A stretch of 64,000 nt of DNA from the NCBI GenBank assembly GCA_032622095.1, contig CP136067.1:52307899-52371898 (forward strand), in the 5' to 3' direction. Below, in pieces: positions 5,348-47,005 of the stretch (within the stretch, counting starts at the first letter, position 1; each line of letters starts with the position of its first letter). The DNA is from Siphonodentalium dalli. Its lineage: Eukaryota; Mollusca; Scaphopoda; Gadilida; Siphonodentaliidae. Below the pieces are notes generated by a model. It ran no database searches. It had not been told where the DNA came from and was given only the letters and a program-made list of their open reading frames with translations. A program made the translations under genes and the position numbers.

Positions 5348-5660
5348 AGGCACGTGAGGCCTTTAGTTGTCGAAAATATTCATATTTGTTCCAATCACTG
5401 TAAACAGAAAAACATTTAAAACGCATACAGTTTCGTTCATATATACCATGACCATCGCGTAAACAGCATGTTGTCATAAATATTTACTATATTTTACCTA
5501 AGCAAGAGCCTGATTGTGTTACAGAAGACAACACTATGCTGCTGGCTAATCACACACAAATGGCATAAACGCTCTTTATTCGTTCCCATATCAGGAATTC
5601 ACACACAAAGAACGCTCTTTATGTTTACCATCATAATATAAACAAACACCAGAAAAGTTC
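5348..5660 (+). mobile_element. TTAA element family i, left part, split by the giant insertion
   Basis: Begins after TTAA (5344-5347) with AGGCACGTGAGGCC and follows the intact relative 55575-56078 up to CCAGAAAAGTT. At that point homology stops. It resumes 41 kb away at 46998, and the copy closes at 47190 with GTACCT followed by TTAA (47191-47194). The element therefore pre-dates the giant insertion. No coding capacity is visible. Confidence 0.88.
5653..5660 (+). repeat. Left target-site duplication of the giant element (GAAAAGTT)
   Basis: Identical to 46998-47005. The uninterrupted relative has only one GAAAAGTT at the corresponding place (within 55885-55900), as expected for a duplication made on insertion. 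Confidence 0.85.
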
Positions 5661-5949
5661 TAATAGGGAATGCTCCAGACGGGAGACCAACCACCCACCC
5701 ACAACAAATAATATAAACACACAATGAAAACATCCACTAGCACATTGCGCCAATACGAGATCTGATATGATATTTTTACTACGAATGCAATGATAACGCC
5801 TATACTAGCTATCAGTAGTACAGTTGCAATCAAATTATTACAAACAATTACCAGATATATATATTCGTTTAGGCCCATGTTTGTGTTGGCAGGGGGGTTT
5901 TGTGTCATATATTACATATGTTGAAAACCGGTTCACTTGGGATCTATAA
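5661..5949 (+). repeat. Left terminal and subterminal region of the giant element
   Basis: The outermost ~50 bp pair with the inverse of 46950-46997, best over GGAGACCAACCACCCACCCA and AACAAA. The rest of the region is hardly alignable to the other end. A minus-strand frame of 82 codons with hydrophobic stretches lies at 5660-5908, but it overlaps the terminal repeat and has no counterpart at the other end, so I do not call it a gene. Confidence 0.75.
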
Positions 5950-8900
5950 TTATGACTTGGGCACATATAACTTATTAGAACCGATTTTGGGCTCAGGGCA
6001 GCCTAAGGCAACTATATGGTTTTTTTTAATATTAAAATTAGTATCATTCATTTAACTCCAATTTGGGCACTGTACATAACCTATTCCATCACTGTTAGGT
6101 ATCTACTTCCAGCACTTTTGTTGTTTGTGGATAGGTATGCATCTATGCAAATAGTTTGCACAAAGTTTGGGCTCCTCGGTGGGTTTTAAGGGTATGGAGA
6201 CAGCCCAACACCCACAGCACCCATGATAAAACCATACAGCACCCGTGCCTATGAAAACATATTTCTGAGTCAGCCATCTCTCAGACTATACCCATTCTGA
6301 AAATGATTCCACATTTCACTTTAGATATATAGAGGCAATGGGAAAAAATGATTTGGGCACCTGAATGGCATTTTGGGCTCTGGTCAGGGGGGAATATTTG
6401 GGTTTTTTAATGGTTAAATTGGTATATTTAACTGGAATTGGGTCCTGTGACCCATTATATGTATATACTTCTAGGTCTCCTAGTGTTTTTGGAAAGATCT
6501 GCATCATTATAAGAAGATATGCTAAAAGTTTGGGCTCCTTAGTGGGTTTTAAGGGTATGGAGACAGCCCAACACCCACAGCACCCATGACAATTCAAGTT
6601 AAATTGGTATATTTAACTTGAATTGGGCCATATGACCCATTATATGTATCTACTTCCAGCACTTTTGTTGTTTGTGGATAGGTATGCATCTATGCAAATA
6701 GTTTGCACAAAGTTTGGGCTCTTCGGTGGGTTTTAAGGGTATGGATACAGCCCAACACCCACAGCACCCATGATAAAACCATACAGCACCCGTGCCTATG
6801 AAAACTTATTTCTGAGTCAGCCATCTCTCAGACTATACCCATTCTGAAAATGATTCCACATTTCACTTTAGAATATATAGAGGCAATGGGAAAAGATGAT
6901 TTGGGCACCTGAATGGCATTTTGGGCTCTGGTCAGGGGGAATATTTGTTTTTTTTAATGGTTAAATTGGTATATTTAACTGGAATTGGGTCCTGTGACCC
7001 ATTATAGGTATATACTTCTAGGTCTCCTAGTGTTTTTGGAAAGATCTGCATCATTATAAGAAGATATGCAAAAGTTTGGGCTCCTTAGTGGGTTTTAAGG
7101 GTATGGAGACAGCCCAGCACCCATGACAATTCAAGTTAAATTGGTATATTTAACTTGAATTGGGCCATATGACCCATTATATGTATCTACTTCCAGCACT
7201 TTTGTTGTTTGTGGATAGGTATGCATCTATGCAAAAAGTTTGCACAAAGTTTGGGCTCCTCAGTGGGTTTTTAAGGGTATGGAAACAGCCCAACACCTAC
7301 AGCACCCATGATAAAACCATACAGCACACCCGTGCCTATGAAAACATATTTCTGAGTCAGCCATCTCTCAGACTATACCCATTCTGAAAATGATTCCACA
7401 TTTCACTTTAGAATATATAGAGGCAATGGGAAAAGATGATTTGGGCACCTGAATGGCATTTTGGGCTCTGGTCAGGGGGGAATATTTTTTTTTTAATGGT
7501 TAAATTGGTATATTTAACTGGAATTGGGTCCTGTGACCCATTATAGGTATATACTTCTAGGTCTCCTAGTGTTTTTGGAAAGATCTGCATCATTATAAGA
7601 AGATATGCAAAAGTTTGGGCTCCTTAGTGGGTTTTAAGGGTATGGAGACAGCCCAGCACCCATGACAATTCAAGTTAAATTGGTATATTTAACTTGAATT
7701 GGGCCATATGACCCATTATATGTATCTACTTCCAGCACTTTTGTTGTTTGTGGATAGGTATGCATCTATGCAAATAGTTTGCACAAAGTTTGGGCTCGTC
7801 GGTGGGTTTTAAGGGTATGGAAACAGCCCAACACCCACAGCACCCATGATAAAACCATACAGCACCCGTGCCTATGAAAACATATTTCTGAGTCAGCCAT
7901 CTCTCAGACTATACCCATTCTGAAAATGATTCCACATTTCACTTTAGAATATATAGAGGCAATGGGAAAAGATGATTTGGGCACCTGAATGGCATTTTGG
8001 CTCTGGTCAGGGGGGAATATTTGGGTTTTTTAATGGTTAAATTGGTATATTTAACTGGAATTGGGTCCTGTGACCAATTATATGTATATACTTCTAGGTC
8101 TCCTAGTGTTTTTGGAAAGATCTGCATCATTATAAGAAGATATGCAAAAGTTTGGGCTCCTTAGTGGGTTTTAAGGGTATGGAGACAGCCCAGCACCCAT
8201 GACAATTCAAGTTAAATTGGTATATTTAACTTGAATTGGGCCATATGACCCATTATATGTATCTACTTCCAGCACTTTTGTTGTTTGTGGATAGGTATGC
8301 ATCTATGCAAAAAGTTTGCACAAAGTTTGGGCTCCTCAGTGGGTTTTAAGGGTATGGAAACAGCCCAACACCCACAGCACCCATGATAGAACCATACAGC
8401 ACCCGTGCCTATGAAAACATATTTCTGAGTCAGCCATCTCTCAGACTATACCCATTCTGAAAATGATTCCACATTTCACTTTAGAATATATAGAGGCAAT
8501 GGGAAAAGATGATTTGGGCACCTGAATGGCATTTTGGGCTCTGGTCAGGGGGGAATATTTGTTTTTTTTAATGGTTAAATTGGTATATTTAACTGGAATT
8601 GGGTCCTGTGACCCATTATAGGTATATACTTCTAGGTCTCCTAGTGTTTTTGGAAAGATCTGCATCATTATAAGAAGATATGCAAAAGTTTGGGCTCCTT
8701 AGTGTGTTTTAAGGGTATGGAGACAGCCCAGCACCCATGACAATTCAAGTTAAATTGGTATATTTAACTTGAATTGGGCCATATGACCCATTATATGTAT
8801 CTACTTCCAGCACTTTTGTTGTTTGTGGATAGGTATGCATCTATGCAAATAGTTTGCACAAAGTTTGGGCTCCTCGGTGGGTTTTAAGGGTATGGAAACA

Positions 8901-11900
8901 GCCCAACACCCACAGCACCCATGATAAAACCATACAGCACCCATGCCTATGAAAACATATTTCTGAGTCAGCCATCTCTCAGACTATACCCATTCTGAAA
9001 ATGATTCCACATTTCACTTTAGAATATATAGAGGCAATGGGAAAAGATGATTTGGGGCACCTGAATGGCATTTTGGGCTCTGGTCAGGGGGGAATATTTG
9101 TTTTTTTTAATGGTTAAATTGGTATATTTAACTGGAATTGGGTCCTGTGACCCATTATAGGTATATACTTCTAGGTCTCCTAGTGTTTTTGGAAAGATCT
9201 GCATCATTATAAGAAGATATGCAAAAGTTTGGGCTCCTTAGTGGGTTTTAAGGGTATGGAGACAGCCCAGCACCCATGACAATTCAAGTTAAATTGGTAT
9301 ATTTAACTTGAATTGGATCATATGACCCATTATATGTATCTACTTCCAGCAATTTTGTTGTTTGTGGATAGGTATGCATCTATGCAAATAGTTTGCACAA
9401 AGTTTGGGCTCCTCGGTGGGTTTTAAGGGTATGGAAACAGCCCAACACCCACAGCACCCATGATAAAACCATACAGCACCCGTGCCTATGAAAACATATT
9501 TCTGAGTCAGCCATCTCTCAGACTATACCCATTCTGAAAATGATTCCACATTTCACTTTAGAATATATAGAGGCAATGGGAAAAGATGATTTGGGCACCT
9601 GAATGGCATTTTGGGCTCTGGTCAGGGGGGAATATTTGTTTTTTTTAATGGTTAAATTGGTATATTTAACTGGAATTGGGTCCTGTGACCCATTATAGGT
9701 ATATACTTCTAGGTCTCCTAGTGTTTTTGGAAAGATCTGCATCATTATAAGAAGATATGCAAAAGTTTGGGCTCCTTAGTGGGTTTTAAGGGTATGGAGA
9801 CAGCCCAACACCCACAGCACCCATGACAATTCAAGTTAAATTGGTATATTTAACTTGAATTGGGCCATATGACCCATTATATGTATCTACTTCCAGCACT
9901 TTTGTTGTTTGTGGATAGGTATGCATCTATGCAAATAGTTTGCACAAAGTTTGGGCTCCTCGGTGGGTTTTAAGGGTATGGAAACAGCCCAACACCCACA
10001 GCACCCATGATAAAACCATACAGCACCCGTGCCTATGAAAACATATTTCTGAGTCAGCCATCTCTCAGACTATACCCATTCTGAAAATGATTCCACATTT
10101 CACTTTAGAATATATAGAGACAATGGGAAAAGATGATTTGGGCACCTGAATGGCATTTTGGGCTCTGGTCAGGGGGGAATATTTGTTTTTTTTAATGGTT
10201 AAATTGGTATATTTAACTGGAATTGGGTCCTGTGACCCATTATAGGTATATACTTCTAGGTCTCCTAGTGTTTTTGGAAAGATCTGCATCATTATAAGAA
10301 GATATGCAAAAGTTTGGGCTCCTTAGTGGGTTTTAAGGGTATGGAGACAGCCCAACACCCACAGCACCCATGACAATTCAAGTTAAATTGGTATATTTAA
10401 CTTGAATTGGGCCATATGACCCATTATATGTATCTACTTCCAGCACTTTTGTTGTTTGTGGATAGGTATGCATCTATGCAAATAGTTTGCACAAAGTTTG
10501 GGCTCCTCGGTGGGTTTTAAGGGTATGGAAACAGCCCAACACCCACAGCACCCATGATAAAACCATACAGCACCCGTGCCTATGAAAACATATTTCTGAG
10601 TCAGCCATCTCTCAGACTATACCCATTCTGAAAATGATTCCACATTTCACTTTAGAATATATAGAGGCAATGGGAAAAGATGATTTGGGCACCTGAATGG
10701 CATTTTGGGCTCTGGTCAGGGGGGAATATTTGTTTTTTTTAATGGTTAAATTGGTATATTTAACTGGAATTGGGTCCTGTGACCCATTATAGGTATATAC
10801 TTCTAGGTCTCCTAGTGTTTTTGGAAAGATCTGAATCATTATAAGAAGATATGCAAAAGTTTGGGCTCCTTAGTGGGTTTTAAGGGTATGGAGACAGCCC
10901 AGCACCCATGCCAATTCAAGTTAAATTGGTATATTTAACTTGAATTGGGCCATATGACCCATTATATGTATCTACTTCCAGCACTTTTGTTGTTTGTGGA
11001 TAGGTATGCATCTATGCAAATAGTTTGCACAAAGTTTGGGCTCCTCGGTGGGTTTTAAGGGTATGGAAACAGCCCAACACCCACAGCACCCATGATAAAA
11101 CCATACAGCACCCGTGCCTATGAAAACATATTTCTGAGTCAGCCATCTCTCAGACTATACCCATTCTGAAAATGATTCCACATTTCACTTTAGAATATAT
11201 AGAGGCAATGGGAAAAGATGATTTGGGCACCTGAATGGCATTTTGGGCTCTGGTCAGGGGGGAATATTTGGTTTTTTTAATGGTTAAATTGGTATATTTA
11301 ACTGGAATTGGGTCCTGTGACCCATTATAGGTATATACTTCTAGGTCTCCTAGTGTTTTTGGAAAGATCTGCATCATTATAAGAAGATATGCAAAAGTTT
11401 GGGCTCCTTAGTGTGTTTTAAGGGTATGGAGACAGCCCAGCACCCATGACAATTCAAGTTAAATTGGTATATTTAACTTGAATTGGGCCATATGACCCAT
11501 TATATGTATCTACTTCCAGCACTTTTGTTGTTTGTGGATAGGTATGCATCTATGCAAATAGTTTGCACAAAGTTTGGGCTCCTCGGTGGGTTTTAAGGGT
11601 ATGGAAACAGTCCAACACCCACAGCACCCATGATAAAACCATACAGCACCCGTGCCTATGAAAACATATTTCTGAGTCAGCCATCTCTCAGACTATACCC
11701 ATTCTGAAAATGATTCCACATTTCACTTTAGAATATATAGAGGCAATGGGAAAAGATGATTTGGGCACCTGAATGGCATTTTGGGCTCTGGTCAGGGGGG
11801 AATATTTGTTTTTTTTAATGGTTAAATTGGTATATTTAACTGGAATTGGGTCCTATGACCCATTATAGGTATATACTTCTAGGTCTCCTAGTGTTTTTGG

Positions 11901-14760
11901 AAAGATCTGCATCATTATAAGAAGATATGCAAAAGTTTGGGCTCCTTAGTGGGTTTTAAGGGTATGGAGACAGCCCAGCACCCATGACAATTCAAGTTAA
12001 ATTGGTATATTTAACTTGAATTGGGCCATATGACCCATTATATGTATCTACTTCCAGCACTTTTGTTGTTTGTGGATAGGTATGCATCTATGCAAATAGT
12101 TTGCACAAAGTTTGGGCTCCTCGGTGGGTTTTAAGGGTATGGAAACAGCCCAACACCCACAGCACCCATGATAAAACCATACAGCACCCGTGCCTATGAA
12201 AACATATTTCTGAGTCAGCCATCTCTCAGACTATACCCATTCTGAAAATGATTCCACATTTCACTTTAGAATATATAGAGGCAATGGGAAAAAATGATTT
12301 GGGCACCTGAATGGCATTTTGGGCTCTGGTCAGGGGGGAATATTTGGGTTTTTTAATGGTTAAATTGGTATATTTAACTGGAATTGGGTCCTGTGACCCA
12401 TTATATGTATATACTTCTAGGTCTCCTAGTGTTTTTGGAAAGATCTGCATCATTATAAGAAGATATGCAAAAGTTTGGGCTCCTTAGTGGGTTTTAAGGG
12501 TATGGAGACAGCCCAACACCCACAGCACCCATGACAATTCAAGTTAAATTGGTATATTTAACTTGAATTGGACCATATGACCCATTATATGTATCTACTT
12601 CCAGCACTTTTGTTGTTTGTGGATAGGTATGCATCTATGCAAATAGTTTGCACAAAGTTTGGGCTCCTCGGTGGGTTTTAAGGGTATGGAAACAGCCCAA
12701 CACCCACAGCACCCATGATAAAACCATACAGCACCCGTGCCTATGAAAACATATTTCTGAGTCAGCCATCTCTCAGACTATACCCATTCTGAAAATGATT
12801 CCACATTTCACTTTAGAATATATAGAGGCAATGGGAAAAGATGATTTGGGCACCTGAATGGCATTTTGGGCTCTGGTCAGGGGGGGGAATATATATTTTT
12901 TTTTTAATGATTAAATTGGTATATTTAACTGGAATTGGGTCCTGTGACCCATTATAGGTATATACTTCTAGGTCTCCTAGTGTTTTTGGAAAGATCTGCA
13001 TAATTATAAGAAGATATGCAAAAGTTTGGGCTCCTTAGTGGGTTTTAAGGGTATGGAGACAGCCCAGCACCCATGACAATTCAAGTTAAATTGGTATATT
13101 TAACTTGAATTGGGCCATATGACCCATTATATGTATCTACTTCCAGCACTTTTGTTGTTTGTGGATAGGTATGCATCTATGCAAATAGTTTGCACAAAGT
13201 TTGGGCTCCTCGGTGGGTTTTAAGGGTATGGAAACAGCCCAACACCCACAGCACCCATGATAAAACCATACAGCACCCGTGCCTATGAAAACATATTTCT
13301 GAGTCAGCCATCTCTCAGACTATACCCATTCTGAAAATGATTCCACATTTCACTTTAGAATATATAGAGGCAATGGGAAAAAATGATTTGGGCACCTGAA
13401 TGGCATTTTGGGCTCTGGTCAGGGGGGAATATTTGGGTTTTTTAATGGTTAAATTGGTATATTTAACTGGAATTGGGTCCTGTGACCCATTATATGTATA
13501 TACTTCTAGGTCTCCTAGTGTTTTTGGAAAGATCTGCATCATTATAAGAAGATATGCAAAAGTTTGGGCTCCTTAGTGGGTTTTAAGGGTATGGAGACAG
13601 CCCAACACCCACAGCACCCATGACAATTCAAGTTAAATTGGTATATTTAACTTGAATTGGACCATATGACCCATTATATGTATCTACTTCCAGCACTTTT
13701 GTTGTTTGTGGATAGGTATGCATCTATGCAAATAGTTTGCACAAAGTTTGGGCTCCTCGGTGGGTTTTAAGGGTATGGAAACAGCCCAACACCCACAGCA
13801 CCCATGATAAAACCATACAGCACCCGTGCCTATGAAAACATATTTCTGAGTCAGCCATCTCTCAGACTATACCCATTCTGAAAATGATTCCACATTTCAC
13901 TTTAGAATATATAGAGGCAATGGGAAAAGATGATTTGGGCACCTGAATGGCATTTTGGGCTCTGGTCAGGGGGGGGAATATATATTTTTTTTTTAATGAT
14001 TAAATTGGTATATTTAACTGGAATTGGGTCCTGTGACCCATTATAGGTATATACTTCTAGGTCTCCTAGTGTTTTTGGAAAGATCTGCATAATTATAAGA
14101 AGATATGCAAAAGTTTGGGCTCCTTAGTGGGTTTTAAGGGTATGGAGACAGCCCAGCACCCATGACAATTCAAGTTAAATTGGTATATTTAACTTGAATT
14201 GGGCCATATGACCCATTATATGTATCTACTTCCAGCACTTTTGTTGTTTGTGGATAGGTATGCATCTATGCAAATAGTTTGCACAAAGTTTGGGCTCCTC
14301 GGTGGGTTTTAAGGGTATGGAAACAGCCCAACACCCACAGCACCCATGATAAAACCATACAGCACCCGTGCCTATGAAAACATATTTCTGAGTCAGCAAT
14401 CTCTCAGACTATACCCATTCTGAAAATGATTCCACATTTCACTTTAGAATATATAGAGGCAATGGGAAAAGATGATTTGGGCACCTGAATGGCATTTTGG
14501 GCTCTGGTCAGGGGGGAATATTTGTTTTTTTTAATGGTTAAATTGGTATATTTAACTGGAATTGGGTCCTGTGACCCATTATAGGTATATACTTCTAGGT
14601 CTCCTAGTGTTTTTGGAAAGATCTGCATCATTATAAGAAGATATGCAAAAGTTTGGGCTCCTTAGTGGGTTTTAAGGGTATGGAGACAGCCCAACACCCA
14701 CAGCACCCATGACAATTCAAGTTAAATTGGTATATTTAACTTGAATTGGGTCATATGACC
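5950..14760 (+). repeat. Left satellite arm: ~540-bp dimeric tandem repeats
   Basis: About 16 well-kept monomers spaced 538-547 bp (one landmark, 'ttccacatttcac', recurs near 6310, 6852, 7393, 7929, 8467, 9006 and on to 14430). Each monomer is itself two related halves, each having a 'gacccattata', 'gtttgggctcct' and 'gtgggttttaagggtatgg' block. The 9-bp presence or absence of 'aacacccac' explains most length variation. The first ~160 bp (5950-6110) are degenerate. A 1,089-bp two-monomer higher-order unit is repeated at 12226-13314 and 13315-14403. A 62-75-codon minus-strand frame recurs in most copies but is not preserved in the right arm. Confidence 0.95.
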
Positions 14761-16740
14761 CATTATAGGTATCTATTTCCAGCACTTTTATAGTTTTTGG
14801 ATAGGTATGCAACTATGCATCTATACAAATGGTTTGCACAAAGTTTGGGCTCCACGGTGGGTTTTAAAGTTATGGAGACAGCCCAACACACACAGCTCCC
14901 ATGAAAAAAAACCATACAGCACCCGTGCCTATGAAAACATATTTCTGAATCGGTGATCTCTCAGACTATACCCATTCTGAAAATTACTCTACAGTTGACT
15001 TTTAGAATATATATAGGCAATGAGAAAAAAAATTATTTGAGCATATGAATGGGATTTTGGGCTTTGGTCAGGGGGGGGGGGGGGAATATTTGGGTATTTT
15101 AAAAGTTAAATTGGTATATTTAACGTGAATTGTGACCCATTATAGATTTCTACTTCCTGTACTTTTAGTGTTTCATCTGTATAAGAATATGTGCAAAAGT
15201 TTTGGCTCCTCAGTGGGTTTTTAGGAGATGGTGACAGCCCAACACCCACGGCACCCATGATGAAACCATACAGCGGCTATGAAAACATATTTCTGGGTCA
15301 GTGTTCTCTCAGACTATACCTATTCTGAAAATTAATCCAGTTTACTTCAGAATATATGTAGGCAATGGTAAAACAATTCTTTGGGCACCTGAATGGTATT
15401 TTGGGCTCTGGTCAGGGGGAGGGGAATATTTGGGTTTTTTAATAGTTAAGTTGGTATATTTAACTTGAATTGTGACCCATTATAGATATCAACTTCCAGT
15501 ACTTTTAGTGTTTTTGGAAATATATTCATCTGTTTAAGAAGATGTGCAAAAGTTTGGGCTCCTCAGTGGGTTTTAAGGGTGTGGTGACAGCCCAACACCC
15601 ACGGCACCCATGATGAAACCATACAGCACCCGTGCCTATAAAATAATTTTTCTGGGTCTCAGACTATGCCCATTCTGAAAATGATATATTTTGGCACCTG
15701 GAAGTTATTTTGGGCTCTGGTCAAGGGGAGTGGAATATTAGGAATTTTAATAGTCAAGTTGGTATATTTAACTTATATTGTGCCATTATTGATATCTACA
15801 TCCAGGGCTTTTAGTGTTATTGAATAGGTAAGCACCTATGTAAATGATTTCCCGTATTGGATTTAAGAGTATGGAGCCAGCCCAACACCCACAGCACCAA
15901 TGGTAAACCATACAGCATCTGTGCCTATAGAATCATATTTTGGGGTCAGTGTTCAATCAGACAACACTCATTTATGAAACATGATTCCACATATGACTTT
16001 AGAGTATAGGCAGGCGATCAACAGAAAATATTTTGTTACCTGGAAGGGAATTTGGCGAGGGGAGAGGAATATTTGTGTTTTTAATAGCCATATTGGTATT
16101 TTAGGCTTAGGAATCAGTCCAACACCCATACCACCCATGATAAAACATATGGCACTGGTACCTATAAAATAATATTTTGGGGTCAGTGTTATCTCAGACA
16201 CCGAAAAAAATATTATTTGGGCACCTGGAAGGGATTTTGGGCTCAGGGGGAGGTGAATATTTGTGTTTAATAGTCAAATGGATAATTTTAACTTGAATTG
16301 GGCCCAGTAACCCATTTAATGTTTGGGCACGTTGAAGGGATTTTGGGCTCAGGTGAGGTGAATATTTGTGTTTAAAGTCGATTGGGTATTTTTTAACTTG
16401 AATTGGGGCCCAGTACCCATTAATTTGTTAATGGATAGATCTGCATCTGCATAAAATATTTACTGAAGTTTGAGCTCCTGGTTGGGATTGAAGGGCACGG
16501 AGCTGGCCCAACACCTGCAGCACCCATGATAAATTCCAATGGACCATGCAACACCTGTGATTATGAAATAATATTTTGGGGTCAGTCTCAGACTCTACTC
16601 ATTCTGAAAATGATTCCACATTTGACTTTAGAATATAGGCAGGCACTGAACAAAACAATTTGGCCACATGAAAGGGATTTTGGTCTCAGTGGGGAGGTGA
16701 ATATTTGTTTGTTCATGGTCTAATTGGTATTATTAAATTG
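14761..16740 (+). repeat. Degenerate inner edge of the left satellite arm
   Basis: The same satellite, but divergence rises and unit length falls toward the loop. Units near 15000-15650 are ~300-350 bp and single rather than dimeric, and beyond 15700 only blocks such as 'ttttgggctc' and 'cagcccaacacc' remain. This is the usual edge decay of an array where homogenisation fails. Poly-G occurs at 15071-15083. Confidence 0.85.
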
Positions 16741-16825
16741 CATTTGATGAGCGAAATAAGCTCATATCAATATAGGCTCTGTGTGGAGATAAACGTCCAA
16801 TATGGGACCATGATTTCCATACAAA
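16741..16825 (+). mobile_element. Family B arm fragment
   Basis: Contains GAGCGAAATAAGCTCATAT and CCAATATGGGACC, which are typical family B arm motifs. It sits between the decayed satellite and a fuller B copy. Confidence 0.55.
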
Positions 16826-17985: not shown

Positions 17986-18890
17986 AGCTCCATGAATTCC
18001 GTTCCCAGTTCCCAGTTCCCTATTCTCCTAAAATTGCACTTTTCGTTTACTAAATCGGCTGCGTAGCCAGAGTCATGGAGACCACCCGGGAATCCTTGTA
18101 TTTTCGTGCGGTGCCACACAGCGGGGATCTATATGAAAGGGACGCGACCATGCAGCCCCTTCCCAATTTTCGAAAATTGGGCTGAAGTCGTGCATGGGGT
18201 GTCAAAATAGCACTTTTCGTTACTAAATCGGCTGCGTAGCCAGAGTCATGGTGTCCACCCGGGAATCCTTGTATTTTTGTGCGGTGCCACCCAGCGGGCA
18301 TCTATAGAAAAGGGACGCGACCATGCAGCCCCTTCCAAATTTTCGAAAATCGGACTGAAGGCGTGCATGGGGTGTCAAAATAGCACTTTTCGTTACTAAA
18401 TCGGCTGCGTAGCCAGAACCATGGCGGCCACCCGGGAATCCTTGCATTTTCGTGCGGTGCCACCCAGCGGGCATCTATTGGACAGGGACGCGGCCATCTA
18501 GCCCCTTCCAATTTTTCGAAAATTGGGCTGAAGTCGTGCATGTAGCTAAACATAGCACGCTTTGTTACTAAATCGGCTGCGTAGCCAGAACCATGGCGGC
18601 TACCCGGGAATTCTTTCATTTTCGTGCGGTGCCACCCAGCGGGCATCTTTATGACAGGGACGCGGCCATATAGCCTCTTCCAATTTTTTGAAAATTGGGC
18701 TGAAGTCGTGCATGGAGTTAATTTTTTTTAACTTTTTGTTACTAAATCAGCTGCGTAGACAGAACCATGGCGGCCACTCGGGAATCCTTGTATTTTCGTG
18801 CGGTGCCACCCAGTAGACATCTATTGGACAGGGACGAGACCTTATAGGCCTTTTCAATTTTTCGAAAATTGGGTTGAAGTCGTGCATGGA
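17986..18890 (+). repeat. Left arm of the fold-back element: ~172-bp tandem units
   Basis: The landmark 'cggctgcgtagccag' recurs about every 173 bp (near 18056, 18229, 18402, 18576; variant near 18748). Units carry 'gtgcggtgccacccagcggg' and 'ttcgaaaattgggctgaag'. Overlapping Arg/Pro-rich open frames on the minus strand arise because the period is close to a multiple of three. They are not genes. Confidence 0.9.
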
Positions 18891-19027
18891 GCGCTAAATC
18901 GCCCGCGTAGGCATAACCGTAGCAGACACGTGGCTATCCTTGCGGGATCTTCTTGTGCCACCACTATTACATCTAAAAATCACAAACTAGGTCACATAAA
19001 CTTGTCCAAAATAGGACATTTTTCGTT

Positions 19028-19306
19028 AGTCGATAATGTACTGAAAAGGAGACCCTATTAGTCACAATATCGACTCATATAGAGGCGATTCTAAGCAGAT
19101 TATGTGCGAACAATGACAAGAAATAAGCCAACCCACTACTGTTCAGCTGTACGCTCATTAACATGTGTTTTCACTGTGGCTCGCGACTTAACACAAAATG
19201 ATGACTATGACTCCATTATCTGCTTATTTCAGAATCAAATAATCACTTTATGTACCTAATTGGAATTATAGGTCGAATATGTGCGTATTTGTGCGAGGAT
19301 ATGTTG
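19028..19306 (+). mobile_element. Family A element, 5'-truncated, nested in the 172-bp array
   Basis: Begins within family A at AGTCGATAATGTAC and ends at GAGGATATGTTG. It is followed by CTAAATC (19307-19313), the point in the array unit where the next A copy is also inserted. The left ~85 bp of the element are missing. Confidence 0.8.
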
Positions 19307-20033
19307 CTAAATCGCCTGCGTTGGCATAACCATAGCAGCCACTGGGCTATCCTTGTGGATTCTTCTTTGCCCACCACTAGTCCATCTAGAAATCACAAAC
19401 TGGTTCACATATGCCTGTCCAGCTGTTAATAAATTGGATGTAAGTCGTGCATCGGATGAAAATAATGAAAAAAATGTCATTTTTCGTTGCAAATCGTCTG
19501 CGTAGGCATATCCATAGCAGCCACGGGGCTCTCGTTGTGGATTCTTCTTATGCCACCACTAGTCCATCGAGAGATCACAAACTGGTTCACATACGCCTGT
19601 CCAGCTGTTCAAAAATTGGGCGTAAGTCGTGCGTGGGGTCAAAATAATGAAACAAAGTTCATTTTTCGTTGCTAAATCGCCTGCGTAGGCATAACCATAG
19701 CAGTCACGAGACTATCCGTGTGGATTTTTCTTCTGCCACCACCAGTCCATCTAGAAATCACAAATCAATTAACATGCTCCCGTCCAGCTGTTCACAAATT
19801 GAGCGTAAGTCGTGCGTGGGGTTAAAATAATGAAAAAAAAAAAAAATTCGTTGCTAAATCGCCTGCGTAGGCATAACCATAGACGCTACGGGGCTATCCT
19901 TGTGGATTCTTCTTGTGCCGCTACAAGTCCATCTAGAAATCACAAAATATGTCATATAAACTTGTCCAGCTGTTCAACAGTTGGGCGTAAATCGTGCGTG
20001 GGGTAAAAATATGACATTTTTCGTTGCTTAATC

Positions 20034-25564: not shown

Positions 25565-25604
25565 TTTCTACGGCGGCCTGGAACCGCCACCCCCTCTTCA
25601 GTTA

Positions 25605-28077: not shown

Positions 28078-28116
28078 TAACTGAAGAGGAGGTGGCGGTT
28101 CCAGGCCGCCGTAGAT

Positions 28117-36540: not shown

Positions 36541-36599
36541 CGTACAGGAAGGTAACACCCTGATTGTATAGATTACCCAGGGTGTCCCCCCTGAGTGTA

Positions 36600-36980
36600 T
36601 AGAATACCCCGGTTTACATGGCCCAATTCAAGTTAAATATACCGACATTAATATTAAAAAACATATTTTGTCCTTCACCTGAGCCCAAATATGATTTTAA
36701 AGACAAGGGTGCTGTATGATTTATCATGGGTGCTGTTGGTGTTGTGCCAGTCTCAGTAAACTTAGCGTACATTTGCTCCCATAGTTGCGCACGGTACGAG
36801 CGCGACTAGCAATTGTACTTCGAAATTCATTACGACTGGTGTTGTGCCACCTGCTCACCATTAAATCACTCCCAGGTGCCCAAACTTTTGCAAACCTTCT
36901 TATACTGATGCACATCTTTCCAAAAACACTACTAGTAAGAGACATAGAAGTAGATACCTATAATGGGTCACAGGGCTCAA
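36600..36980 (-). repeat. Degenerate inner edge of the right satellite arm
   Basis: Recognisable satellite blocks ('cccaattcaagttaaat', 'tatcatgggtgctgt', 'caaacttttgcaaa') are interrupted at ~36758-36865 by non-satellite sequence. Decay toward the loop mirrors the left arm, though over a shorter distance. Confidence 0.75.
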
Positions 36981-39900
36981 TTCAATTTGACCATTAAAAA
37001 ACCCAAATATTCCCCTCCCCTGACCAAAGCCCAAAATCCCATTCAGATGCCCAAATAATTTTTTCCCATTGCCTCTATATATTCTAAAGTGAACTGTGGA
37101 ATCCTTTTCAGAATGGGTATAGTCTGAGAGATGGCTGACTCAGAAATGTTTTCATAGGCACGGGTGCTGTATGGTTTTATCATGGGTGCTGTGGGTGTGG
37201 GGCTGTCTCAATACCCTTAAAACCCACTGAGGAGCCCAAACTATGTGCAAATCATTTGCATAGATGCATACCTATCCACAAACAACAAAAGTGTTGGAAG
37301 TAGATACATATAATGGGTCATATGGCCCAATTCAAGTTAAATATACCAATTTAACTTGAATTGTCATGGGTGCTGTGGGTGTTGGGCTGTCTCCATACCC
37401 TTAAACCCACTAAGGAGCCCAAACTTTTGCAAATCTTCTTATACTGATGCAGATATTTCCAAAATCACTAGGAGACCTAGAAGTATATACCTTTACAGGA
37501 CCCAATTCCAGTTAAATATACCAATTTAACCATTAAAAAAAACAAATATCCCCCCTGAATAGAGCCCAAAATCCCATTCAGGTGCCCAAATATTTTTTTT
37601 CCATTGCCTCTATATATTCTAGAGTGAAATATGGAATCATTTACAGAATGGGTATAGTCTGAGAGATGGCTGACTCAGAAATATGTTTTCATAGGCACGG
37701 GTGCTGTATGGTTTTATCATGGGTGCTGTGGGTGTTGGGCTGTCTCAATACCCTTAAAACCACTGAGGAGCCCAAACTTTGTGCAAACCATTTGCATAGA
37801 TGCATACCTATCCACAAACAACAAAAGTGTTGGAAGTAGATACATATAATTGGTCATATGGCCCAATTCAAGTTAAATATACCAATTTAACTTGAATTGT
37901 CATGGGTGCTGTGGGTGTTGGGCTGTCTCCATACCCTTAAAACCCACTAAGGAGCCCAAACTTTTGCAAATCTTCTTATACTGATGCAGATATTTCCAAA
38001 ATCACTAGGAGACCTAGAAGTATATACCTTTACAGGTCCCAATTCCAGTTAAATATACCAATTTAACCATTAAAAAAACCAAATACCCCCCCTGAATAGA
38101 GCCCAAAATCCCATTCAGGTGCCCAAATATTTTTTCCCCATTGCCTCTATATATTCTAGAGTGAAATGTGGAATCATTTACAGAATGGGTATAGTCTGAG
38201 AGATGGCTGACTCAGAAATATGTTTTCATAGGCACGGGTGCTGTATGGTTTTATCATGGGTGCTGCGGGTGTTGGGCTGTCTCAATACCCTTAAAACCCA
38301 CTGAGGAGCCCAAACTTTGTGCAAACCATTTGCATAGATGCATACCTATCCACAAACAACAAAAGTGTTGGAAGTAGATACATATAATGGGTCATATGGC
38401 CCAATTCAAGTTAAATATACCAATTTAACTTGAATTGTCATGGGTGCTGTGGGTGTTGGGCTGTCTCCATACCCTTAAAACCCACTAAGGAGCCCAAACT
38501 TTTTCAAATCTTCTTATACTGATGCAGATATTTCCAAAATCACTAGGAAACCTAGAAGTATATACCTTTACAGGACCCAATTCCAGTTAAATATACCAAT
38601 TTAACCATTAAAAAAAACCAAATATCCCCCCTGAATAGAGCCCAAAATCCCATTCAGGCGCCCAAATATTTTTTCCCATTGCCTCTATATATTCAAGAGT
38701 GAAATGTGGAATCATTTACAGAATGGGTATAGTCTGAGAGATGGCTGACTCAGAAATATGTTTTCATAGGCACGGGTGCTGTATGGTTTTATCATGGGTG
38801 CTGTGGGTGTTGGGCTGTCTCAATACCCTTAAAACCCACTGAGGAGCCCAAACTTTGTGCAAACCATTTGCATAGATGCATACCTATCCACAAACAACAA
38901 AAGTGTTGGAAGTAGTTACATATAATGGGTCATATGGCCCAATTCAAGTTAAATATACCAATTTAACTTGAATTGTCATGGGTGCTGTGGGTGTTGGGCT
39001 GTCTCCATACCCCTAAAACCCACTAAGGAGCCCAAACTTTTGCAAATCTTCTTATACTGATGCAGATATTTCCAAAATCACTAGGAGACCTAGAAGTATA
39101 TACCTTTACAGGTCCCAATTCCAGTTAAATATACCAATTTAACCATTAAAAAAACCAAATATCCCCCCTGAATAGAGCCCAAAATCCCATTCAGGTGCCC
39201 AAATATTTTTTCCCCATTGCCTCTATATATTCTAGAGTGAAATGTGGAATCATTTACAGAATGGGTATAGTCTGAGAGATGGCTGACTCAGAAATATGTT
39301 TTCATAGGCACGGGTGCTGTATGGTTTTATCATGGGTGCTGTGGGTGTTGGGCTGTCTCAATACCCTTAAAACCCACTGAGGAGCCCAAACTTTGTGCAA
39401 ACCATTTGCATAGATGCATACCTATCCACAAACAACAAAAGTGTTGGAAGTAGTTACATATAATGGGTCATATGGCCCAATTCAAGTTAAATATACCAAT
39501 TTAACTTGAATTGTCATGGGTGCTGTGGGTGTTGGGCTGTCTCCATACCCCTAAAACCCACTAAGGAGCCCAAACTTTTGCAAATCTTCTTATACTGATG
39601 CAGATATTTCCAAAATCACTAGGAGACCTAGAAGTATATACCTTTACAGGTCCCAATTCCAGTTTAAATATACCAATTTAACCATTAAAAAAAAACAAAT
39701 ATCCCCCCCTGAATAGAGCCCAAAATCCCATTCAGGTGCCCAAATATTTTTTCCCCATTGCCTCTATATATTCTAGAGTGAAATGTGGAATCATTTACAG
39801 AATGGGTATAGTCTGAGAGATGGCTGACTCAGAAATATGTTTTCATAGGCACGGGTGCTGTATGGTTTTATCATGGGTGCTGTGGGTGTTGGGCTGTCTC

Positions 39901-42900
39901 AATACCCTTAAAACCCACTGAGGAGCCCAAACTTTGTGCAAACCATTTGCATAGATGCATACCTATCCACAAACAACAAAAGTGTTGGAAGTAGATACAT
40001 ATAATTGGTCATATGGCCCAATTCATGTTAAATATACCAATTTAACTTGAATTGTCATGGGTGCTGTGGGTGTTGGGCTGTCTCCATACCCTTAAACCCA
40101 CTAAGGAGCCCAAACTTTTGCAAATCTTCTTATACTGATGCAGATATTTCCAAAATCACTAGGAGACCTAGAAGTATATACCATTACAGGACCCAATTCC
40201 AGTTAAATATACCAATTTAACCATTAAAAAAACCAAATATCCCCCCTGAATAGAGCCCAAAATCCCATTCAGGCGCCCAAATATTTTTTCCCATTGCCTC
40301 TATATATTCAAGAGTGAAATGTGGAATCATTTACAGAATGGGTATAGTCTGAGAGATGGCTGACTCAGAAATATGTTTTCATAGGCACGGGTGCTGTATG
40401 GTTTTATCATGGGTGCTGTGGGTGTTGGGCTGTCTCAATACCCTTAAAACCCACTGAGGAGCCCAAACTTTGTGCAAACCATTTGCATAGATGCATACCT
40501 ATCCACAAACAACAAAAGTGTTGGAAGTAGATACATATAATGGGTTCATATGGCCCAATTCAAGTTAAATATACCAATTTAACTTGAATTGTCATGGGTG
40601 CTGTGGGTGTTGGGCTGTCTCCATACCCTTAAAACCCACTAAAGAGCCCAAACTTTTGCAAATCTTCTTATACTGATGCAGATATTTCCAAAATCACTAG
40701 GAGACCTAGAAGTATATACCTTTACAGGACCCAATTCCAGTTAAATATACCAATTTAACCATTAAAAAAACCAAATATCCCCCCTGAATAGAGCCCAAAA
40801 TCCCATTCAGGTGCCCAAATATTTTTTTCCCATTGCCTCTATATATTCTAGAGTGAAATGTGGAATCATTTACAGAATGGGTATAGTCTGAGAGATGGCT
40901 GACTCAGAAATATGTTTTCATAGGCACGGGTGCTGTATGGTTTTATCATGGGTGCTGTGGGTGTTGGGCTGTCTCAATACCCTTAAAACCCACTGAGGAG
41001 CCCAAACTTTGTGCAACCATTTGCATAGATGCATACCTATCCACAAACAACAAAAGTGTTGGAAGTAGATACATATAATGGGTCATATGGCCCAATTCAA
41101 GTTAAATATACCAATTTAACTTGAATTGTCATGGGTGCTGTGGGTGTTGGGCTGTCTCCATACCCTTAAAACCCACTAAGGAGCCCAAACTTTTGCAAAT
41201 CTTCTTATACTGATGCAGATATTTCCAAAATCACTAGGAGACCTAGAAGTATATACCTTTACAGGACCCAATTCCAGTTAAATATACCAATTTAACCATT
41301 AACAAAACCAAATATCCCCCTGAATAGAGCCCAAAATGCCATTCAGGTGCCCAAATATTTTTTTCCCATTGCCTCTATATATTCTAGAGTGAAATGTGGA
41401 ATCATTTACAGAATGGGTATAGTCTGAGAGATGGTTGACTCAGAAATATGTTTTCATAGGCACGGGTGCTGTATGGTTTTATCATGGGTGCTGTGGGTGT
41501 TGGGCTGTCTCAATACCCTTAAAACCCACTGAGGAGCCCAAACTTTGTGCAAACCATTTGCATAGATGCATACCTATCCACAAACAACAAAAGTGTTGGA
41601 AGTAGATACATATAATGGGTCATATGGCCCAATTCAAGTTAAATATACCAATTTAACTTGAATTGTCATGGGTGCTGTGGGTGTTGGGCTGTCTCCATAC
41701 CCCTAAAACCCACTAAGGAGCCCAAACTTTTGCAAATCTTCTTATACTGATGCAGATATTTCCAAAATCACTAGGAGACCTAGAAGTATATACCTTTACA
41801 GGTCCCAATTCCAGTTAAATATACCAATTTAACCATTAAAAAAACCAAATATCCCCCCTGAATAGAGCCCAAAATCCCATTCAGGTGCCCAAATATTTTT
41901 TCCCCATTGCCTCTATATATTCTAGAGTGAAATGTGGAATCATTTACAGAATGGGTATAGTCTGAGAGATGGCTGACTCAGAAATATGTTTTCATAGGCA
42001 CGGGTGCTGTATGGTTTTATCATGGGTGCTGTGGGTGTTGGGCTGTCTCAATACCCTTAAAACCCACTGAGGAGCCCAAACTTTGTGCAAACCATTTGCA
42101 TAGATGCATACCTATCCACAAACAACAAAAGTGTTGGAAGTAGTTACATATAATGGGTCATATGGCCCAATTCAAGTTAAATATACCAATTTAACTTGAA
42201 TTGTCATGGGTGCTGTGGGTGTTGGGCTGTCTCCATACCCCTAAAACCCACTAAGGAGCCCAAACTTTTGCAAATCTTCTTATACTGATGCAGATATTCC
42301 AAAATCACTCGGAGACCTAGAAGTATATACCTTTACAGGTCCCAATTCCAGTTAAATATACCAATTTAACCATTAAAAAAAACAATATCCCCCCCTGAAT
42401 AGAGCCCAAAATCCCATTCAGGTGCCCAAATATTTTTCCCCATTGCCTCTATATATTCTAGAGTGAAATGTGGAATCATTTACAGAATGGGTATAGTCTG
42501 AGAGATGGCTGACTCAGAAATATGTTTTCATAGGCACGGGTGCTGTATGGTTTTATCATGGGTGCTGTGGGTGTTGGGCTGTCTCAATACCCTTAAAACC
42601 CACTGAGGAGCCCAAACTTTGTGCAAACCATTTGCATAGATGCATACCTATCCACAAACAACAAAGTGTTGGAAGTAGATACATATAATTGGTCATATGG
42701 CCCAATTCATGTTAAATATACCAATTTAACTTGAATTGTCATGGGTGCTGTGGGTGTTGGGCTGTCTCCATACCCTTAAAACCCACTAAGGAGCCCAAAC
42801 TTTTGCAAATCTTCTTATACTGATGCAGATATTTCCAAAATCACTAGGAGACCTAGAAGTATATACCATTACAGGACCCAATTCCAGTTAAATATACCAA

Positions 42901-45900
42901 TTTAACCATTAAAAAAACCAAATATCCCCCCTGAATAGAGCCCAAAATCCCATTCAGGCGCCCAAATATTTTTTCCCATTGCCTCTATATATTCAAGAGT
43001 GAAATGTGGAATCATTTACAGAATGGGTATAGTCTGAGAGATGGCTGACTCAGAAATATGTTTTCATAGGCACGGGTGCTGTATGGTTTTATCATGGGTG
43101 CTGTGGGTGTTGGGCTGTCTCAATACCCTTAAAACCCACTGAGGAGCCCAAACTTTGTGCAAACCATTTGCATAGATGCATACCTATCCACAAACAACAA
43201 AAGTGTTGGAAGTAGATACATATAATGGGTCATATGGCCCAATTCAAGTTAAATATACCAATTTAACTTGAATTGTCATGGGTGCTGTGGGTGTTGGGCT
43301 GTCTCCATACCCTTAAAACCCACTAAAGAGCCCAAACTTTTGCAAATCTTCTTATACTGATGCAGATATTTCCAAAATCACTAGGAGACCTAGAAGTATA
43401 TACCTTTACAGGACCCAATTCCAGTTAAATATACCAATTTAACCATTAAAAAAACCAAATATCCCCCCTGAATAGAGCCCAAAATCCATTCAGGTGCCCA
43501 AATATTTTTTTCCCATTGCCTCTATATATTCTAGAGTGAAATGTGGAATCATTTACAGAATGGGTATAGTCTGAGAGATGGCTGACTCAGAAATATGTTT
43601 TCATAGGCACGGGTGCTGTATGGTTTTATCATGGGTGCTGTGGGTGTTGGGCTGTCTCAATACCCTTAAAACCCGCTGAGGAGCCCAAACTTTGTGCAAC
43701 CATTTGCATAGATGCATACCTATCCACAAACAACAAAAGTGTTGGAAGTAGATACATATAATGGGTCATATGGCCCAATTCAAGTTAAATATACCAATTT
43801 AACTTGAATTGTCATGGGTGCTGTGGGTGTTGGGCTGTCTCCATACCCTTAAAACCCACTAAGGAGCCCAAACTTTTGCAAATCTTCTTATACTGATGCA
43901 GATATTTCCAAAATCACTAGGAGACCTAGAAGTATATACCTTTACAGGACCCAATTCCAGTTAAATATACCAATTTAACCATTAACAAAACCAAATATCC
44001 CCCTGAATAGAGCCCAAAATGCCATTCAGGTGCCCAAATATTTTTTCCCATTGCCTCTATATATTCTAGAGTGAAATGTGGAATCATTTACAGAATGGGT
44101 ATAGTCTGAGAGATGGTTGACTCAGAAATATGTTTTCATAGGCACGGGTGCTGTATGGTTTTATCATGGGTGCTGTGGGTGTTGGGCTGTCTCAATACCC
44201 TTAAAACCCACTGAGGAGCCCAAACTTTGTGCAAACCATTTGCATAGATGCATACCTATCCACAAACAACAAAAGTGTTGGAAGTAGATACATATAATGG
44301 GTCATATGGCCCAATTCAAGTTAAATATACCAATTTAACTTGAATTGTCATGGGTGCTGTGGGTGTTGGGCTGTCTCCATACCCCTAAAACCCACTAAGG
44401 AGCCCAAACTTTTGCAAATCTTCTTATACTGATGCAGATATTTCCAAAATCACTAGGAGACCTAGAAGTATATACCTTTACAGGTCCCAATTCCAGTTAA
44501 ATATACCAATTTAACCATTAAAAAAACCAAATATCCCCCCTGAATAGAGCCCAAAATCCCATTCAGGTGCCCAAATATTTTTTCCCCATTGCCCTCTATA
44601 TATTCTAGAGTGAAATGTGGAATCATTTACAGAATGGGTATAGTCTGAGAGATGGCTGACTCAGAAATATGTTTTCATAGGCACGGGTGCTGTATGGTTT
44701 TATCATGGGTGCTGTGGGTGTTGGGCTGTCTCAATACCCTTAAAACCCACTGAGGAGCCCAAACTTTGTGCAAACCATTTGCATAGATGCATACCTATCC
44801 ACAAACAACAAAAGTGTTGGAAGTAGTTACATATAATGGGTCATATGGCCCAATTCAAGTTAAATATACCAATTTAACTTGAATTGTCATGGGTGCTGTG
44901 GGTGTTGGGCTGTCTCCATACCCCTAAAACCCACTAAGGAGCCCAAACTTTTGCAAATCTTCTTATACTGATGCAGATATTTCCAAAATCACTCGGAGAC
45001 CTAGAAGTATATACCTTTACAGGTCCCAATTCCAGTTAAATATACCAATTTAACCATTAAAAAAAACAAATATCCCCCCCCTGAATAGAGCCCAAAATCC
45101 CATTCAGGTGCCCAAATATTTTTTCCCCATTGCCTCTATATATTCTAGAGTGAAATGTGGAATCATTTACAGAATGGGTATAGTCTGAGAGATGGCTGAC
45201 TCAGAAATATGTTTTCATAGGCACGGGTGCTGTATGGTTTTATCATGGGTGCTGTGGGTGTTGGGCTGTCTCAATACCCTTAAAACCCACTGAGGAGCCC
45301 AAACTTTGTGCAAACCATTTGCATAGATGCATACCTATCCACAAACAACAAAAGTGTTGGAAGTAGATACATATAATTGGTCATATGGCCCAATTCATGT
45401 TAAATATACCAATTTAACTTGAATTGTCATGGGTGCTGTGGGTGTTGGGCTGTCTCCATACCCTTAAAACCCACTAAGGAGCCCAAACTTTTGCAAATCT
45501 TCTTATACTGATGCAGATATTTCCAAAATCACTAGGAGACCTAGAAGTATATACCTTTACAGGACCCAATTCCAGTTAAATATACCAATTTAACCATTAA
45601 AAAAAACCAAATATCCCCCCTGAATAGAGCCCAAAATGCCATTCAGGTGCCCAAATATTTTTTTCCCATTGCCTCTATATATTCTAGAGTGAAATGTGGA
45701 ATCATTTACAGAATGGGTATAGTCTGAGAGATGGTTGACTCAGAAATATGTTTTCATAGGCACGGGTGCTGTATGGTTTTATCATGGGTGCTGTGGGTGT
45801 TGGGCTGTCTCAATACCCTTAAAACCCACTGAGGAGCCCAAACTTTGTGCAAACCATTTGCATAGATGCATACCTATCCACAAACAACAAAAGTGTTGGA

Positions 45901-46611
45901 AGTAGATACATATAATGGGTCATATGGCCCAATTCAAGTTAAATATACCAATTTAACTTGAATTGTCATGGGTGCTGTGGGTGTTGGGCTGTCTCCATAC
46001 CCCTAAAACCCACTAAGGAGCCCAAACTTTTGCAAATCTTCTTATACTGATGCAGATATTTCCAATTTCACTAGGAGACCTAGAAGTATATACCTTTACA
46101 GGTCCCAATTCCAGTTAAATATACCAATTTAACCATTAAAAAAACCAAATATCCCCCCTGAATAGAGCCCAAAATCCCATTCAGGTGCCCAAATATTTTT
46201 TCCCCATTGCCTCTATATATTCTAGAGTGAAATGTGGAATCATTTACAGAATGGGTATAGTCTGAGAGATGGCTGACTCAGAAATATGTTTTCATAGGCA
46301 CGGGTGCTGTATGGTTTTATCATGGGTGCTGTGGGTGTTGGGCTGTCTCAATACCCTTAAAACCCACTGAGGAGCCCAAACTTTGTGCAAACCATTTGCA
46401 TAGATGCATACCTATCCACAAACAACAAAAGTGTTGGAAGTAGATACATATAATTGGTCATATGGCACAATTCATGTTAAATATACCAATTTAACTTGAA
46501 TTGTCATGGGTGCTGTGGGTGTTGGGCTGTCTCCATACCCTTAAAACCCACTAAGGAGCCCAAACTTTGTGCAAACTATTTGTATATAGATGCATACCTA
46601 TCCACAAACAA
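36981..46611 (-). repeat. Right satellite arm: ~540-bp tandem repeats, inverted relative to the left arm
   Basis: About 18 monomers ('gtggaatcatttacag' recurs near 37632, 38166, 38706 and on to 46232). They are the reverse complement of the left-arm dimeric unit, but all lack the 'ataatgggtca' block between 'tatacct' and 'caggaccc' of one half. A five-monomer higher-order unit (~2,683 bp) is visible: marker 'attaacaaaacc' at 41298 and 43981, 'ggttgactcag' at ~41434, 44115 and 45734, and 'ataattggtcatatgg' at ~40002, 42686 and 45374. The array stops abruptly at 46611. Confidence 0.95.
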
Positions 46612-46997
46612 CAACAACCGTGTCTATAGTATAGTATTTGAGGAGCATTGCCATTATGGAATTTATTCTGTCATTTGTCAACTATTTACAGCTTATTTTT
46701 TTATATAAATAACTAAACACCTTATGAGATGTCTGGAAAATAATGATATATTATTGTGACCCATTATAGGTATATAACTGTAAGGAAACACAGATTTATA
46801 AAACTTTAGTCATGTTATCTGAGAGATAGATGTCTTTGTTAGCTATTCTGGTCATTACTGTATACTGTTATTCTGAAATTACGATCTTGCGCCGTTTCGC
46901 ATGCCCGCCCGGATGTTTACATTATTAGCGGTGTTTGTATACAATCGGTTTGTTATGGGTGGGTGGTTGGTCTCCGAGCTCGAGCTTTATGTCTCTC
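46612..46997 (-). repeat. Right terminal and subterminal region of the giant element
   Basis: Outermost ~50 bp (46950-46997) pair inversely with 5661-5710. A short satellite piece 'tgtgacccattataggtata' at ~46755-46775 lies in the opposite orientation to the neighbouring arm. The rest has no match to the left side, and the open frames are not gene-like. Confidence 0.7.
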
Positions 46998-47005
46998 GAA
47001 AAGTT
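46998..47005 (+). repeat. Right target-site duplication of the giant element (GAAAAGTT)
   Basis: Identical to 5653-5660 and directly followed by the resumed TTAA family i sequence (ACTTTTTATGCTTTTG). Confidence 0.85.

Follow-up and report, generated by a model that had tools for sequence, protein, structure and literature searches.

Probable giant non-autonomous foldback-type DNA transposons in the genome of the scaphopod Siphonodentalium dalli

We analysed a window of 64,000 nucleotides from the scaphopod mollusc Siphonodentalium dalli (assembly GCA_032622095.1, contig CP136067.1, positions 52,307,899 to 52,371,898, forward strand), in which an earlier note made from the letters alone had described a 41.3-kb insertion with inverted ends. 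The inserted block belongs to a set of very large, nearly identical elements, of which this genome contains roughly a hundred. No genes could be recognised in them, and an enzyme encoded at another locus probably moves them, which is unusual for transposable units this large. These elements very probably form a family of giant non-autonomous foldback-type DNA transposons. This judgement concerns the transposon itself, and not its enzyme superfamily, the origin of its arms and core or the steps that involve mixed ends. The family is real, recent and unusual in size, and its architecture is of a known type.

Insertion borders and empty site

The 8-mer GAAAAGTT occurs at positions 5652-5659 and 46998-47005 and brackets an insertion of 41,338 bp (5660-46997). 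Hence, the 8-bp duplication reported by the earlier note is present on both sides. Of the borders that it gave (5661 and 46997), the right one was correct, whereas the left one was one base late. Within the window, exact copies of GGAGACCAACCACCCACCCA were found only at 5682 (+ strand) and 46956 (- strand), each 22 nt inside its border, exactly as had been described. The two 22-nt outer tips agree with each other at 10 of 22 positions (shuffle mean 5.8; P = 0.047). This is a weak resemblance, and the tips are not terminal inverted repeats of each other.

The interrupted target is a 512-bp element with TTAAAGG ends. The flanks of the insertion, joined with one copy of the 8-mer, aligned to positions 55571-56082 along the full 505 bases (505/505) with 93.6% identity, and this locus is therefore a genuine empty site. 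The earlier note was thus right to point to an intact relative with a single 8-mer. The features at the insertion site are:

5652-5659, no strand: target duplication, left copy of GAAAAGTT, 8 bp
46998-47005, no strand: target duplication, right copy of GAAAAGTT, 8 bp
5344-5659, + strand: left part of the interrupted 512-bp TTAA-type target element
46998-47194, + strand: right part of the interrupted 512-bp TTAA-type target element
55571-56082, + strand: intact relative of the target element (empty site)

Copies across the genome

The genome (2.23 Gb, 9 contigs) was scanned for both tips with patterns of 29 bases, allowing at most two mismatches. The left tip was found 104 times and the right tip 118 times, while a reversed control pattern gave no match. 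Each left tip was paired with the nearest right tip in matching orientation within 250 kb, among the matches listed (100 of the 104 left and 100 of the 118 right tips), which yielded 86 left-right pairs. The earlier note would have given up its insertion if these two ends recurred nowhere else as a pair, and it survives this search.

The median length was 41.7 kb among the 84 pairs shorter than 120 kb, and 13 pairs fell between 59 and 66 kb. Three pairs spanned 1.5-2.2 kb; all the others (83 of 86) measured at least 24.6 kb. Miniature inverted-repeat transposable elements (MITEs) are short non-autonomous elements of a few hundred bp to about 1 kb. These lengths reject a MITE, and agree with the earlier view that the size lies far outside the MITE range.

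Target site duplications

Flanks were examined for 64 pairs, comprising 63 of the 86 and one pair with an older left tip. An exact 8-bp duplication was present in 46 of these 64 pairs, where about 0.001 would be expected by chance (with equal base frequencies; somewhat more if AT-rich). Four pairs showed a one-base difference, four carried exchanged 8-mers (at two loci) and two made up one composite. Among the pairs examined, the longest with exact duplications outside the hotspot described below were 95.0, 81.5, 78.8 and 77.4 kb. Two still longer pairs, of 180.6 and 113.9 kb and known from their flanks alone, had exact duplications within the hotspot repeat. Helitrons insert between A and T without a target duplication, and were rejected because 8-bp duplications are present.

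The hotspot accounts for 22 of the 46 exact duplications, which carry 8-mers of the repeat AGAAAAGTAACTTTTTATGC (assigned by 8-mer). In the 512-bp TTAAAGG-ended repeat (55571-56082 and its relatives), the hotspot 8-mers come from the near-palindromic AAAAGTAACTTTT centre. The 24 non-hotspot duplications had A at positions 2 and 3 in 17 and 13 cases, and T at positions 6 and 7 in 14 and 17 cases, respectively. The target preference is thus symmetric and AT-rich, nAA..TTn.

Two loci have unusual flanks. At L101/L102 (C4:177890108-177932886), the right tip is separated from a target-like sequence by CTAATAGG, the 8 nt with which the left tip begins; this arrangement may be the trace of an intermediate in which right and left ends were joined. 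At least 30 bp of flank, including the 8-mer GAAAGAGC, are common to L043, an old truncated left end on C2, and L164, a young full copy on C6.

Anatomy of the window copy

The window copy consists of terminal domains, two arms of tandem repeats and a core:

5660-46997, + strand: giant element, 41,338 bp
5660-5681, + strand: left tip, 22 nt; no mismatch to the 29-mer containing it in 88 of 100 listed copies (104 in all)
46976-46997, + strand: right tip, 22 nt; no mismatch to the 29-mer containing it in 96 of 100 listed copies (118 in all)
5682-5701, + strand: sub-terminal inverted repeat GGAGACCAACCACCCACCCA
46956-46975, - strand: sub-terminal inverted repeat of the opposite arm
5660-6095, + strand: left terminal domain, outside the tandem array
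6096-15260, + strand: left arm, a tandem array of about 17 units, 538 bp each (some 547); CpG observed/expected 0.10
15261-36873, + strand: core, with no open reading frame (ORF) beyond chance and an ordinary CpG content from about 17 to 34 kb
36874-46610, - strand: right arm, inverted 538-bp unit; CpG observed/expected 0.07
46611-46997, + strand: right terminal domain

The right arm is inverted with respect to the left arm, at about 92% identity. As in foldback elements, long inverted arms of tandem repeats thus flank a middle domain. CpG is nearly absent from both arms. The left arm has an excess of CpA and the right arm an excess of TpG, as expected for a single unit present in two orientations. 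The core had CpG observed/expected ratios of 0.88-1.21 in 1-kb bins from 17 to 34 kb, with one bin at 0.52, and the DNA surrounding the element mostly had ratios of 0.8-1.3. The listed matches to the 538-bp unit all lay within known copies (judged by eye; 16 of 554 candidates scored).

Two further repeat structures were seen in the core. Positions 25601-25969 and 27711-28081 are inverted arrays of a 22-bp unit that holds the palindrome CCTGATATATCAGG. At 18030-21617, where the element is richest in GC, arrays of 173-bp units in inverted orientation surround 183-bp arrays.

Coding content, age and variation among copies

The longest stop-free frame in the core encodes 141 aa, while 60 dinucleotide simulations gave a mean of 131 and a maximum of 190 aa. 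The 96 stop-free core ORFs of at least 55 aa gave one weak match to Pfam (NleE, E 0.0084), which we dismissed as chance, and hidden core genes were rejected. Scans of the window with Rfam (gathering scores) and for tRNAs gave no match. Mavericks, Teratorns and Starships encode integrase, polymerase, capsid, tyrosine recombinase or other genes. An element of this type was rejected from the two copies that were read through, because the core ORFs of the window copy do not exceed chance and the longest frame of a 64-kb copy on C6 is 147 aa.

The family amplified recently. The 64-kb copy is collinear with the window copy from tip to tip, with a common core and longer arrays. Long pieces of the two copies are 97-99% identical and a few short array pieces 84-92%; in the core we counted 53 substitutions in 19,885 aligned bases (0.27%, gaps not counted). 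The 40 matches to a core probe that were scored (of 3,916 candidates) had 97-100% identity; 37 of these 40 lay within listed pairs, and the other three at 17-25 kb from an unpaired tip. In the 37 copies the probe lay 12-62 kb from the left tip and 13-44 kb from the right tip. Together with the longer arrays of the 64-kb copy, these distances indicate that arm length varies between copies, as it does in foldback elements.

The core was flipped relative to the tips in two of the 37 copies (C2:41.07 Mb and C8:124.89 Mb), both of which kept exact duplications, as expected for recombination between inverted arms. A copy of 1,758 bp on C5 consists of the outer left 812 bp and right 948 bp of the large form, and has an exact duplication. 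Two other short members, L041 and L042 (C3:216.57 and 216.92 Mb; 1.5 and 2.2 kb), have near-identical tips and direct repeats of about 370 bp. They apparently belong to an older lineage at a duplicated locus with common flanks.

The earlier note had called the block a non-coding, fold-back-like transposon. Paired ends at dozens of loci, 8-bp duplications, a collinear 64-kb copy, a core without ORFs beyond chance and inverted tandem-repeat arms all bear this description out.

The mobilising enzyme

No transposase was found encoded in the window copy, one 64-kb copy, three short copies or the ends of others. An older variant of the tip was found at nine left ends, two of which are the short copies L041 and L042. 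We looked for an autonomous relative, as the earlier note had hoped for, in the 4 kb inward of the seven other older left ends and of 13 of the 14 unpaired right ends. No convincing transposase emerged (56 of 57 ORFs of at least 80 aa scanned), and no autonomous copy was found there; these stretches contained unrelated ORFs besides young arms, truncated ends and older arrays. The terminal domains of the older ends were 76-79% identical in the five that align, with similar tips, a contrast that is biased by their discovery through the tip pattern.

Three domain matches near older ends are not convincing as transposases. In L043, a lambda-integrase arm domain was marginal (E 0.0002), its 21.7 bits falling just short of the cut-off of 22. 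A methyltransferase-like exon at L047:3562-3999 (Pfam E 1e-8) lies some 3.4 kb inward of an old left tip. A 190-aa ORF at L055:1107-1676 has a PHD-like finger (Pfam E 0.034) and is flanked by an old right end and a repeat array.

Domains of the MULE, P and hAT types occur in the genome; scoring covered 150 of 813 MULE candidates, 150 of 1918 hAT candidates and 22 P-element matches. We tentatively favour the Mutator superfamily (MULE/Phantom) as the source of the enzyme, an assignment that we put slightly below an even chance. It is argued by analogy from Tm1, a Phantom-like Mutator/Foldback element of root-knot nematodes, which combines sub-terminal inverted repeats with foldback arms and 8-10-bp duplications (PMC3169594). 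Tm1 further resembles the present family in its short asymmetric tips outside the inverted repeat, which according to its authors occur likewise in other Mutator-like elements, in its internal tandem repeats of variable number and in its mostly non-autonomous copies (PMC3169594). Non-inverted tips outside sub-terminal inverted repeats, seen in some Mutator/MULE members, are found here as well, and these tips together with the arms make Mutator the best guess. Tm1 differs in its amplicons of about 0.9 and 2.3 kb, a motif of about 14 bp and mostly 9-bp duplications (PMC3169594), whereas the present copies are mostly 25-95 kb long, with a 538-bp unit, 8-bp duplications and no transposase copy found.

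Alternatively, the same giant element could be moved by a hAT or P-superfamily transposase, which we consider possible but less likely than Mutator. Both superfamilies can give 8-bp duplications, and the duplications are strictly 8 bp here. Elements of the hAT type have short terminal inverted repeats and the duplication consensus nTnnnnAn, and P-superfamily elements also have terminal inverted repeats. In contrast, the present tips differ and are not inverted, the 24 non-hotspot duplications read nAA..TTn, and no listed domain match lies inside a listed copy. The genome does hold 22 P-element and at least 150 hAT domain matches. One hAT match (C8:111318574-111318813) is found 14 kb away from the unpaired right tip at C8:111332890, on its outer side, probably by chance. 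Galileo demonstrates that P-type elements can have long repetitive inverted repeats (PMC3573991), but its duplications are 7 bp with the consensus GTAGTAC (PMC2775673), whereas those found here are 8 bp and AT-rich.

Exchanged duplications and a possible composite

At C2:149.95/150.00 Mb, two opposed copies of 41,211 and 41,212 bp lie 7.5 kb apart, and the right-side 8-mer of each copy is the left-side 8-mer of the other (AAAAATTA, GACTAATG). The probe-to-tip lengths of both sides agree to 1 bp. At C6:159.47/159.57 Mb, the 8-mers are likewise exchanged (CATCAATG, GCCACGGA); the right sides are equal (15,436 bp), and the left sides differ by 5.0 units. The likeness of the copies within each pair was judged from lengths alone. 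No other pair among the 666 that 37 copies can form has right sides within 5 bp of each other in length. The five other neighbouring pairs within 300 kb were all of unlike length. Three of them kept their own exact duplications (C1:257.08/257.28, C4:123.42/123.68 and C7:28.34/28.63 Mb), while the duplications at C3:250.31/250.60 and C4:105.69/105.77 Mb were not clear-cut.

At C6:61.47-61.66 Mb, two copies in direct orientation are separated by a 29-kb spacer, and AAAAGAGG is common to their outer ends only. The inner flanks differ (GATCATCA versus CATTTATT), which led us to reject a simple cointegrate. The locus resembles a 195-kb composite carrying 29 kb of host DNA, a possible reading of the assembled sequence. 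The left 980 bp of the spacer match C1:263284703-263285682 at 99%, where the site is empty, and bases 447-980 of this end also match C1:275228939-275229467 at 97%. The right 980 bp match C1:275253904-275254875 at 98%, with no tip there among the matches listed. A single composite donor near C1:263.25-263.29 Mb failed, since the right end showed only repeat similarity to C1:263.253-263.260 Mb; a donor at C1:275.23-275.25 Mb is possible. The two inversions and the one possible composite suggest, if correctly assembled, that the element rearranges chromosomes.

Exchanged duplications are usually taken as a product of ectopic recombination, whereas copies that are identical rather than chimeric are the stated mark of hybrid element insertion (PMC2775673). 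Ectopic recombination between separate opposed copies would leave exchanged duplications as its expected sign (PMC2775673). It could also have flipped the cores, and a similar double exchange could have made the 195-kb composite. We regard it as a plausible but not the favoured origin. The flipped cores suggest that recombination between arms occurs. However, the C2 sides agree to 1 bp and the C6 right sides are equal, so that these copies look like sisters rather than chimeras, and in three other neighbouring pairs, whose members differ in length, each copy has retained its own duplication. Alternatively, a copy may have jumped locally and then recombined with its sister.

Replicative (Shapiro/Mu-like) transposition instead of cut-and-paste seems unlikely. 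If it took place, an intramolecular event would leave the pattern seen on C2 and C6, with opposed sister copies, an inverted segment and old and new duplications split between them. It would also explain some hundred gene-free copies of 40-80 kb with little divergence.

Proposed mechanism and its weighing

In the mechanism that we propose, the family would insert as a unit through a DDE-type transposase supplied in trans, with the 22-nt tips and the sub-terminal repeats as putative transposase-binding ends. The arms may have grown through unequal exchange of the 538-bp unit, and the core would be genomic DNA captured between them. Recombination between the arms would flip the core and yield copies with internal deletions. 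Sister copies might sometimes transpose aberrantly with mixed ends (hybrid element insertion), which would leave exchanged duplications on two like copies and an inverted segment between them. Where two copies lie in direct orientation, the DNA between them may be carried along as well.

Several observations weigh against this account. None of the 322 MULE, P and hAT domains listed lay inside the 86 intervals (judged by eye), where about 0.6 would be expected by chance. The duplication length was 8 bp in all clear cases, which is within the range of Tm1 but unlike the 9 bp common in Mutator elements (PMC3169594). Among the matches listed, 14 of 100 left tips and 14 of 100 right tips had no partner. 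Three of the 64 pairs examined need one or two additional C at the left tip to match exactly or with one mismatch, and the flanks of five others fit no simple event (L069/070, L079/080, L091/092, L101/102 and L107/108). Capture of the core is argued from composition only, and the ends of the composite spacer match places on C1 that are 12 Mb apart. Moreover, the copies exceed common read lengths, and misassembly could mimic the exchanged duplications and the composite.

An assembly error, in which near-identical 40-kb repeats were mis-threaded, would yield false lengths as well as these rearrangements. The two copies compared are about 98-99% alike, and the exchanged pairs and the composite have the shape of a wrong path through a common repeat. 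Random mis-threading would not, however, place the same duplication on both sides of 46 of 64 pairs, and arm lengths vary freely among copies. Hence, we consider such an error very improbable for the family as a whole, although less so for the rearrangements alone. Finally, satellite or segmental duplication without transposition can practically be dismissed: the arms are tandem arrays and flanks are common within L059/L060, L133/L134 and L041/L042, but precise tips with different 8-bp duplications in different flanks, and an empty site, speak against it.

Comparison with known elements

Giant eukaryotic transposons usually carry genes. The TU foldback elements of sea urchins, likened here by description alone, share tandem-repeat arms and 8-bp duplications with the present family, and differ in their short repeat unit and size of a few kb. 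Galileo has true terminal repeats, unlike the present family. The earlier note knew of no named family that matches. This does not hold for the architecture, which is of the foldback type represented by Tm1, Galileo and Tetris, but it does hold for the size, for which we found no precedent. No gene-free DNA transposon of such size appeared in the literature searched, which comprised titles and the beginnings of abstracts and lay outside most subscription journals. The family may bear a name elsewhere.

Galileo, a P-superfamily element of Drosophila, resembles the present family in its long, internally repetitive inverted repeats, its tandem arrays of a repeat of about 210 bp, which grow and shrink, and its inversions with exchanged duplications (PMC3573991, PMC2775673). 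It differs in its 7-bp duplications, inverted repeats of at most about 1.2 kb and known P transposase (PMC3573991, PMC2775673). Tetris, a foldback element of Drosophila virilis, likewise has an outer terminal domain, an array of units of about 220 bp, a middle domain without apparent coding capacity and 8-10-bp duplications (PMC4079207). In contrast, its inverted repeats reach at most 1,735 bp, three copies are structurally complete and its array unit is also satellite-like elsewhere (PMC4079207). The same paper mentions the sea urchin foldbacks as such (PMC4079207). Composite insertions of maize Ac/Ds also combine host DNA and transposon ends, with an 8-bp duplication outside, but they involve a hAT element with a known enzyme and were shown genetically (PMC4270019), whereas here a single case was read from an assembly.

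The inverted repeats of the compared foldback-type elements (Tm1, Galileo, Tetris), as described in these sources, are at most about 1.7 kb, against units here that are mostly 25-95 kb long, lack recognisable genes and occur in roughly a hundred copies with near-identical tips. The family suggests that a transposase can bring together and move ends this far apart, and that satellite-like arms can ride within a transposon. Its copies may also invert stretches of chromosome and might transport host DNA from one chromosome to another. The family makes it possible to test how large such elements can become, whether satellites originate from transposons, and whether transposition in eukaryotes proceeds aberrantly or replicatively.

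Additional observations

The left tips of L133 and L134 (C9:116470271 and C9:116502152) lie 32 kb apart, and their 40-bp flanks differ at one base, which reflects either a tandem duplication or an assembly duplicate. Outside the element, the window contains a 128-bp palindrome at 51771-51898 that is 98% self-complementary. Two adjacent ORFs of 240 and 206 aa on the - strand of the flank (61986-63315) resemble LINE reverse transcriptase, with a FADD-like motif recognized by eye.

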